Source: a bacterium
GTDB lineage: Bacteria > Desulfobacterota > Binatia > DP-6
DNA length: 64,000 nucleotides
Assembly (NCBI GenBank): GCA_026129405.1
Contig: JAHCID010000002.1
Location: 496,001-560,000, forward strand
Direction of reading: 5' to 3'
In this document: positions 61,770-64,000 of the stretch, in pieces
How positions within the stretch are numbered: position 1 is the stretch's first letter
How the letters are laid out: the number at the start of each line of letters is the position of its first letter
Notes under the pieces: model-generated
Databases searched by the model: none
Told to the model about the DNA's origin: nothing
What the model saw: the letters and a program-made list of their open reading frames with translations, nothing else
Translations under genes and position numbers: made by a program

Positions 61770-61833
61770 ATCTAACGGGCTCGGCGTTCAGCTGCCGGCG
61801 CAGCCGGGCGGCTGCAACGGCGTCTTGTGCACC
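61770..61833 (-). repeat. attC-like site A (after the ParE-like gene)
   Basis: On the minus strand this ends in GTTAGAT, matching the integron end box GTTRRRY, at 61770-61776. It has inverted arms GTTCAGCTGCC and GGCGGCTGCAAC around a GC spacer with one unpaired base, a hallmark of attC. The other end box near 61825 is degenerate. From TAAC at 61773 through 61821 it matches site C in 41 of 49 positions. Confidence 0.6.
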
Positions 61834-62126
61834 TCAGCGACGTCTCCACGCCCGCGGGTCCCTGGCGCAGTGGAAGACGGCACAGACTAGAATCTCGGCC
61901 TCACCGATCTCGTAGAACACGGCATACGGAAAAAACGAGAGAGGAGCGCACGGCGCATATGGTGATCGACGAGCCCATAGGCAGCCGGATGCCGTCTGAT
62001 GGCGACGAAGCGTCGATCGACGGCTCGGAGAAACTCGCGTCCCAGGGTCGAACGCCGGGCAGAGTACCAGGCTCGGGCCTCCGCAAGATCAACCTCTGCC
62101 TCCGGTAGTAGCCACAGCGGTTTCAC
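61834..62126 (-). pseudogene. ParE-type toxin gene, frameshifted at an A/T homopolymer
   Basis: The GTG overlaps the antitoxin stop (GTGA). The first 60 or so codons read as a ParE-type toxin of the RelE/ParE superfamily: VKPLWLLPEAEVDLAEARAW, then LGREFLRAVDRRFVAIRRHP and RRALLSRFF. At the A6 run 61930-61935 (T6 in sense) the frame breaks. In another frame the expected continuation is found (PYAVFYEIGEAEILVCAVFH, then CARDPRAWRRR) to the TGA at 61834. A change of one T more or two fewer restores the toxin. Whether the toxin is really inactive or mis-sequenced cannot be told. Confidence 0.75.
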
Positions 62127-62341
62127 TTCTGCCGTTCGAGCCTCCGGCGCACCTCGCCCCACGGGCGAGCGGCCTGCGGATCTCGCGCATGCGCTCGGCG
62201 GCGCCGTGCCAGCTCCTTACGCTGAGCATCGGTGACAGGAACCACCTCAGGGGTGGACGCGAGACTGTCCCACAGCTCCTCGATCAGGCTGAGACGGGCC
62301 TTGGCACTCAGGGCGAGGGCTTCTCTGCGGACGGCGCTCAT
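62123..62341 (-). CDS. addiction-module antitoxin-like protein
   Basis: The 72-residue protein looks like the short addiction-module component paired with ParE toxins: SAVRREALALSAKARLSLIEELWDSLAS, then EVVPVTDAQRKELARRRRAHA and an Arg-rich tail that would bind and block the toxin. It is coupled by four bases to the toxin gene downstream. It begins just inside the cassette, 50 bases from site B. Confidence 0.8.
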   Translation of the reverse strand: MSAVRREALALSAKARLSLIEELWDSLASTPEVVPVTDAQRKELARRRRAHARDPQAARPWGEVRRRLERQK

Positions 62342-62390
62342 GGCTGTGTTCTCCGCCTGTCGACTTCGGGCAGCAAGCCGGCGTCAGTGT

Positions 62391-62480
62391 GTCTAACGTC
62401 GTGCGGATCAGCCGCGCGCCCGGCGACGCACGCCGGATTTCCCGGGGCTCGAGCGCGCCGGCTGCCTCCGCTTGTTAGCG
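62391..62480 (-). repeat. attC-like site B (after DUF2442 gene)
   Basis: The ends are GTCTAAC at 62391-62397 and GTTAGCG at 62474-62480, 90 bases apart and inverted. Inner arms match imperfectly (TCAGCCGCGCGC and GCGCGCCGGCTG). The DUF2442 stop codon lies inside the site, as is common in cassettes. Confidence 0.55.
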
Positions 62481-62770
62481 CGCTTGCGGCTCGCGAGCCA
62501 CCGTTCGAAAGACCCTTGGCTCTCCGCGGAGGGGCGGCCTGCAAGAACTCCTTCAACACTGATGTCCTCATCAAGGTCGGGCCAGTGGACGCCTTCGCCC
62601 GAACCGATCAGTCTCCAGTGTCGCCGCTCGCGGACCGTTCCGGACACCAGGCGCGGATACCAGGCCAATGGCACGGTCACGGAGCGGCCGTCACTCAGAT
62701 CGATGGCGAGTTCGTCCTCCCCAATTCTGACCGCCACCGCCGACGGCTGCTCAACCCTTGAAGTACTCAT
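62408..62770 (-). CDS. DUF2442 protein
   Basis: The 120-residue protein contains the DUF2442 pattern: VAVRIGEDELAIDLSDGRSV, then PLAWYPRLVSGTVRERRHWRLI, GEGVHWPDLDEDISVEGVLAG. Its partner gene DUF4160 lies immediately upstream with a 20-base overlap; this pair recurs in mobile contexts and is thought of as TA-like, though not proven to be so. The last 20 or so Arg/Lys-rich residues are encoded by the attC-like site and are probably not part of the ancestral protein. Confidence 0.8.
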   Translation of the reverse strand: MSTSRVEQPSAVAVRIGEDELAIDLSDGRSVTVPLAWYPRLVSGTVRERRHWRLIGSGEGVHWPDLDEDISVEGVLAGRPSAESQGSFERWLASRKRANKRRQPARSSPGKSGVRRRARG

Positions 62771-62987
62771 TCCACGCCCTCACAAATCGTTCCTGATGGT
62801 CAGCGACGATGCTCGATACACGGGATAGCTCATGGCGGACCAAGCCGCGACTCGAGTGGAGGCGGACCGGCGCAAGCCAGAACGTGGCGCTCCCGCCGCC
62901 ACCCTCCACATGCACGTGAAGCGGCTCAGCGCGATCGCTCGCGTAGAAGAAGAACCGGTAAGGCCCCACTCGCAGGATCGTCGGCAT
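62751..62987 (-). CDS. DUF4160 protein
   Basis: The 78-residue protein has the DUF4160 core MPTILRVGPYRFFFYASDRAEPLHVHVEGGG, with Arg, Glu and two His in the conserved PxHVHV motif, and a C-terminal IVADHQERFVRAWNEYF helix. It is the upstream partner of the DUF2442 gene. Some authors treat these as a toxin-antitoxin-like pair; its biochemical activity is not established. Confidence 0.85.
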   Translation of the reverse strand: MPTILRVGPYRFFFYASDRAEPLHVHVEGGGGSATFWLAPVRLHSSRGLVRHELSRVSSIVADHQERFVRAWNEYFKG

Positions 62988-63023
62988 CGCTGACAGGCCC
63001 TCTGATCCATTCCGACCTTGGCG

Positions 63024-63084
63024 CGCTAACGACCTGGGCGCTCAGCCGCCGGCGGAGCCGGTCGGCTGCAGCGGCAGGTTAGCC
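63024..63084 (-). repeat. attC-like site C (after the BrnA-like gene)
   Basis: This short (61-base) site has ends CGCTAAC at 63024-63030 and GTTAGCC at 63078-63084. Inside, CAGCCGCC and GGCGG-type arms flank GGCGGAGCCG. The antitoxin stop codon TAA is formed by the end box itself, a classic cassette arrangement. It is the best-preserved member and close in sequence to site A. Confidence 0.6.
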
Positions 63085-63324
63085 AGCCCTCCGACCCGCC
63101 TTCCTACGCGCCGGCATCGCCTTGATTACCGAGCGCAGGAACGAGTTGACTGAATCGGACGAGTTGAACACCGATGTGACGTCGGGCGCGAGCACCACGG
63201 CGACTGCGTTCTTCGGCACCTGCCCTGCGAACCGATTCGCCTTCGCCGTCCGATAGTCGAAGCGATACTCCGGACGCATGTCCGTCGCCGAGGCCACGCT
63301 ACGCTTACGAGGTGCCTTCTTCAT
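63079..63324 (-). CDS. BrnA-like antitoxin
   Basis: The 81-residue protein is basic and has the layout of BrnT partner antitoxins: MKKAPRKRSVASATDM, then a short RPEYRFDYRTAKANRFA and a C-terminal domain (AVVLAPDVTSVFNSSDSVNSFLRSVIKAM) like a ribbon-helix-helix DNA-binding fold. It overlaps the toxin gene by 20 bases. BrnA usually represses its own promoter; here the promoter would lie upstream of the toxin. Confidence 0.75.
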   Translation of the reverse strand: MKKAPRKRSVASATDMRPEYRFDYRTAKANRFAGQVPKNAVAVVLAPDVTSVFNSSDSVNSFLRSVIKAMPARRKAGRRAG

Positions 63325-63589
63325 AGTCCTGCCTTTCCTGTCGCGTCGCCCTGCGCGCGCTGAATATGCGAATGCGGGCGGACCGCTGAACGAAGCAGAT
63401 GACAATCAGCCGGCGGCGAGCATCGTGACCGACTAGTATCTCGCGCGCCTCGCTGCCGGAGTGATCCGGGTCGTCGAAGATGCGGGCCAGAGGGTCTCCG
63501 AATGCGCCAACGGCCTCCTCGAACGAGACGCGATGCTTCTCTCGGTTCCCCGCCGCCTTCTTCGGGTCCCATTCGAAGCTCAAGTCCAT
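63305..63589 (-). CDS. BrnT family toxin
   Basis: The 94-residue protein is a strong BrnT match: MDLSFEWDPKKAAGNREKHR, VSFEEAVGAFGDPLARIFDDPDH, then SEAREILVGHDARRRLIVICFVQR and IRIFSARRATRQERQDYEE. BrnT is a ribonuclease-like toxin of the RelE fold that is neutralised by BrnA. The toxin precedes the antitoxin, the usual order for this family. Confidence 0.9.
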   Translation of the reverse strand: MDLSFEWDPKKAAGNREKHRVSFEEAVGAFGDPLARIFDDPDHSGSEAREILVGHDARRRLIVICFVQRSARIRIFSARRATRQERQDYEEGTS

Positions 63590-63633
63590 CGAGAGCTGCC
63601 ACTTCTAGCATGCGGGAGCGCGATTTGCCGCCT

Positions 63634-63730
63634 GGCTAACAACGACTGGCGCTCGACTAGCCAGCGCCGTCGCCATTGCCGATTCTCTTCTCGAGTTCAC
63701 GAAGCCACACCCGCTCTCGAGATGTTAGAC
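63634..63730 (-). repeat. weak attC-like site D (upstream of BrnT)
   Basis: The ends GGCTAAC at 63634-63640 and GTTAGAC at 63724-63730 are 97 bases apart and oriented like the other sites, but internal arms do not pair well. Its place between the BrnT gene and the next segment fits the cassette model. Confidence rests mainly on the end boxes. Confidence 0.35.
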
Positions 63731-63792
63731 GCTGTGGCGCTTCACGCCCGATCGCGATGAAGACCGAGGCAAGCCCGTCCCACCGTGTGGGC

Positions 63793-63960
63793 TCACCGTA
63801 ACGGCCACGGATGATCTTCGATGGATGCCTCGCCAGGTGCACGCCCCTTCTCACTGCTGCTCTTACGCGCGTTGCACTTGTTACATGCCACGGCGAGATT
63901 CTCCCGTAAGCACCCCCGTCAAGGACCCCAGGCATTGCTGGACTCCATCGGGGTTGGGGG
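63793..63960 (-). pseudogene. HNH endonuclease remnant
   Basis: A minus-strand frame ending at 63793 reads RGCLRENLAVACNKCNARKSS, the second half of an HNH zinc-finger nuclease motif (NLAVACxxCNxxK), followed by EASIEDHPWPLR and a stop. Upstream in the same frame is a TGA at about 63922, and the His-containing first half is not found in any frame with confidence. The gene could be truncated, frameshifted, or start beyond base 64000. It lies in a stretch of lower GC content, as expected for acquired DNA. Confidence 0.5.
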
Positions 63961-64000
63961 CCGCGGGAGAAAGCGCGTGGACGGGACGTCGCCCAGCGAT

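Follow-up and report, generated by a model that had tools for sequence, protein, structure and literature searches.

The last 2.2 kb of the analysed DNA raise the question of what kind of element ends there. The preliminary description had read it as the end of an integron or of a CALIN, that is, an attC cluster without integrase left by a decayed integron. The window, meaning the whole 64,000-nucleotide stretch analysed here, corresponds to C2:496001-560000 in a genome of 5.63 Mb on 15 contigs, and positions to its right are given on the contig or as window-equivalent numbers. The region almost certainly forms the distal part of the array in an inverted chromosomal integron, and it carries toxin-antitoxin cassettes. 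The first of the two earlier readings is kept and the second is not, because, on the same contig, the array leads to an IntI gene and an attI. The drop in GC content noticed at the outset was borne out. The array has 65.5% GC and 300 overlapping same-size stretches from the rest of the window have a mean of 73.8% (sd 2.1); none of them is as low.

The minus-strand two-gene units described earlier were recovered with Pfam profiles. Cassette 1 spans 61776-62396 from core site to core site on the minus strand. Its Unstab_antitox antitoxin lies at 62123-62341 (PF09720, 54.4 bits; NCBIfam TIGR02574, 61 bits) and is accompanied by a ParE-like toxin at 61887-62162, whose match to PF05016 is weak and below the cut-off (14.4 bits). 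The frame of the latter is broken near 61.93 kb, which had escaped the preliminary description. Cassette 2 (62397-63029, minus strand) carries a DUF4160 gene at 62751-62987 (PF13711, 63.7 bits) and a DUF2442 gene at 62408-62770 (PF10387, 78.4 bits). In Dickeya, DUF4160 and DUF2442 have been shown to make up a type II toxin-antitoxin pair, dhiTA, in which the toxin gene comes first (PMC8198452). The same order and overlap are found here, so that cassette 2 is, by domains, order and overlap, a predicted toxin-antitoxin pair of the dhiTA type; its toxin scores 20.4 bits with the NCBIfam DhiT equivalog, for which the cut-off is 100 bits. Cassette 3 (63030-63639, minus strand) contains a BrnT toxin gene at 63305-63589 (PF04365, 87.2 bits) and a small BrnA-like partner that ends at 63079 and has no Pfam match. 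Judged from their sequences, each of the three cassettes in the window encodes a toxin-antitoxin pair. The fourth segment of the preliminary description (63640-63903, minus strand) is probably the 3' part of an HNH-nuclease cassette gene split by an IS3-family element. The motifs were seen by eye on either side of the element, and a Pfam search of 63640-63903 alone gave nothing above threshold.

Four inverted boxes had been proposed as attC-like, and a covariance search was carried out on them. Seven candidate sites, taken from the C1 and C2 arrays, went into a first model, R1. A genome-wide search with it gave 18 sites with E no higher than 1, and three arrays account for most of these. So that the test would not be circular, the training set of a second model, R2, was limited to the C1 and C6 arrays; this model never saw the array in the window. 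Three of the four sites scored high, all on the minus strand. Site A (61770-61830) reached 29.5 bits with R2 (E 2.7e-5) and 35 bits with R1 (E 5.1e-6 in 143 kb), with a fold z of -2.7. It is the last attC of the array and has a good R' box and a degenerate R'' box. Site B (62391-62480) reached 44.5 bits (E 2.8e-9; fold z -2.3) and site C (about 63023-63084) 55.9 bits (E 2.7e-12; fold z -4.2) with R2. As had been remarked, stop codons lie in the boxes: that of the DUF2442 frame (62408) is inside site B and that of the BrnA-like frame (63079) is inside site C. The fourth box, candidate site D (63634-63730, minus strand), has R-box-like ends at 63634-63640 and 63724-63730, and its attC stem is unsupported. 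It was matched by neither R1 nor R2 genome-wide, and a minus-strand search with the filters switched off gave it 4.9 bits, so that as an attC it lacks support. The right edge of cassette 3 hinges on this unproven site. As a control, the attC of a class 1 plasmid integron was recognised by the same model on the expected strand (30.9 bits). An Rfam search of the arrays returned zero families.

The array continues beyond the window. The IS3-family insertion sequence occupies 63904-64000 and extends to window-equivalent 65101 on the minus strand, with rve and HTH_Tnp_1 transposase frames; over 1198 bp it shares 93% identity with a copy on C7. Behind it are a second DUF4160/DUF2442 cassette, attC sites at C2:561399 and C2:562005 and a short attC at C2:563008. 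Together with the three sites of the window these form an array of cassettes each with an attC. Cassettes without an assigned function, the attI and the IntI gene follow. From the direction of the genes, integrase and attI had been placed beyond base 64000, and both were located there, 4-5 kb past the window's right edge. The attI has its G^TT core at about window-equivalent 68006. The IntI gene is at C2:564209-565154 (window-equivalent 68209-69154) on the cassette strand (minus), and a search for a tyrosine recombinase of the IntI type matched TIGR02249 at C2:564209-564928 with 345 bits (cut-off 265).

Three such platforms are present in the genome, on C1, C2 and C6, and in all of them intI shares the strand of the cassettes and points towards attI. 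The inverted integrons at C1:1636103-1640856 and C6:15442-19604 have the same intI-attI module as C2. Over 1349 bp, the modules of C2 and C6 share 96% identity in a mosaic pattern, and their similarity stops at the attI core. Between the C1 and C2 platforms the divergence is about 13%. The attI tail 'GGATTAGGC.GGTCGGTCGAAGG(G)TTCG^TTAG' is conserved at all three. A block, CGCCACTTGGCGGGGTAGTTT, was also observed upstream of every intI of the three (C2:565240-565260, C1:1640836-1640856 and C6:15442-15462). It is fully conserved despite the 13% divergence of the C1 gene, and a search allowing up to 3 mismatches gave no other copy in the genome and none in six family members. A fourth IntI gene, more distant than these three, survives as a remnant at C2:218244-218665, with a weak attC-like site at C2:220333-220393.

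A second copy of cassette 2 is located at C1:1639090-1639729, where it is the first cassette behind the attI of the C1 integron. The two copies show 0 differences over 640 bp, and their boundaries are exactly at the core sites. This is strong evidence, at the level of sequence, for a recent site-specific cassette movement between two integrons. Since the platforms differ by 13% and the cassette copies by nothing, cassette 2 would have moved much later than the platforms split. The identical pair could instead have arisen in a genuine integron by gene conversion or misassembly, without movement by IntI. The C2/C6 integrase identity, which is mosaic with long identical runs, does suggest gene conversion between those copies. 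However, on either side the identity of the cassette pair reaches no further than the G^TT core, and immediately next to the cassette the platforms of C1 and C2 are 13% apart. Conversion or misassembly is therefore an improbable source of the pair, and site-specific movement is preferred.

Other genomes were also compared. Of the window cassettes, cassette 2 alone has a family homologue in a genome other than this one; that homologue is in another genus (G002:C50), at 72% identity and within a different attC array. The other matches to cassettes 1-3 in six family members were short and mostly on attC sites. Fixed synteny in distant relatives, which would have spoken against an integron, is not what these cassettes show, and a second copy of cassette 2 lies elsewhere in the genome. 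In three more genomes (loci L035, L071 and L099), an attC follows directly on the 3' end of DUF2442. In the genome studied here, the DNA at C1:320849-321142 is related to cassette 2 but has diverged from it (71-75% identity), and the models find no attC nearby. Lone attC sites without an array were noted at C1:733445-733504 and C1:1431109-1431171 and are possible off-target cassette insertions. Beside the former there are reading frames, one with a weak, below-cut-off match to the CRISPR-associated family PF09609.

The assembly yielded no IntI with an intact frame. The C2 frame has one 1-nt insertion at residue 76, the C6 frame (C6:15548-16431) has two single-nt indels, and the C1 frame has a 118-nt deletion and other indels. 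General indel sequence error is unlikely to be behind the broken integrases, because split frames were found neither among 56 near-full-length ABC domains nor among the other, non-integron tyrosine recombinases of the genome, although local error may still lie behind the interruptions. The differences between the C2 and C6 integrases are distributed over codon positions as 3:6:22. Because they fall mainly at third positions, both genes stayed under selection through most of their past, until recently. With all three frames interrupted, present integrase activity is probably reduced or absent, and the array may now behave functionally like a CALIN. Nevertheless, a CALIN proper is very unlikely, since by definition it has no neighbouring integrase, and this array has a recognisable IntI gene and an attI right beside it. 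A defence or toxin-antitoxin island built by homologous recombination or IS elements, with terminator-like palindromes as boxes, would agree with the toxin-antitoxin pairs and the IS3-family element but is practically dismissed by the box-specific covariance scores, the attI/IntI linkage, and a cassette duplicate that ends exactly at core sites without flanking homology.

For the inverted integron, the following mechanism is proposed. The integrase gene is read towards attI, and cassettes would enter there, at the G^TT core. Older cassettes would be pushed leftward, as far as 61.77 kb. Each cassette would consist of one or two small genes and an attC, which would fold as a single strand and be recombined by IntI. 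By analogy with work on Vibrio, the distal toxin-antitoxin cassettes probably help to hold the array in place. Cassette 2 would have moved recently between the C2 array and the attI of the C1 integron, in a direction that we infer.

How common this layout is was surveyed in the class. Of 58 sampled genomes, this one among them, 22 have an IntI match with E no higher than 1e-60, and the layout of the relatives' integrons was read with attC as a guide. Ten further integrons are inverted (G001 twice, G002, G007, G009, G025, G031, G050, G051 and G055:C30) and two are divergent (G035 and G055:C37). In the IntI tree, inverted, divergent and unknown rows are intermixed and the deep branches lack resolution. 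A single origin of the inverted layout was dropped on this account, and the number of layout changes is left unclaimed. Tentatively, a small network of paralogous inverted platforms, each built on a duplicated intI-attI module, may have traded cassettes, with one integrase serving several of them before decay, and the inverted layout may be the rule in this class, beyond the spirochaetes; this wider picture is a real possibility but short of our expectation. The frequency of the layout in the class, together with the identical cassette in two arrays of one genome, makes cassette traffic between platforms, and cassette expression behind a co-oriented integrase, testable.

Inverted chromosomal integrons are already known, and the region is an ordinary but well documented member of them. 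Its added interest lies in the identical cassette in two paralogous platforms and in the frequency of the inverted layout in the class. A review names an 'inverted integrase group' (PMC10500605), and in archaea the attI sites are described as lying directly downstream of intI (PMC9668308). The best descriptions of inverted integrons come from Treponema; in the class surveyed here such integrons are common. The inverted chromosomal integron of Treponema (PMC3607928) shares with the present one an IntI read towards attI in the cassette direction and a downstream attC array; in contrast, the present genome has three paralogous platforms, short arrays and interrupted integrase frames. The plasmid integron of Gemmatirosa kalamazoonensis is also inverted, with IntI on the plus strand and 13 attC sites downstream on the same strand, but it lies on a 1.1-Mb plasmid, its array is longer, and its attC sites score lower with the same model. 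The class 1 integron used as a control is likewise recognised through its attC; unlike the present array it has a divergent intI, is plasmid-borne and carries resistance cassettes. Vibrio integrons are divergent in layout, and their arrays are far longer. The closest solved structure to the IntI of a relative is VchIntIA (2A3V). The sedentary chromosomal integrons of Vibrio, such as that of Vibrio cholerae, share with the array described here both toxin-antitoxin cassettes and embedded IS3 elements (PMC11023631).
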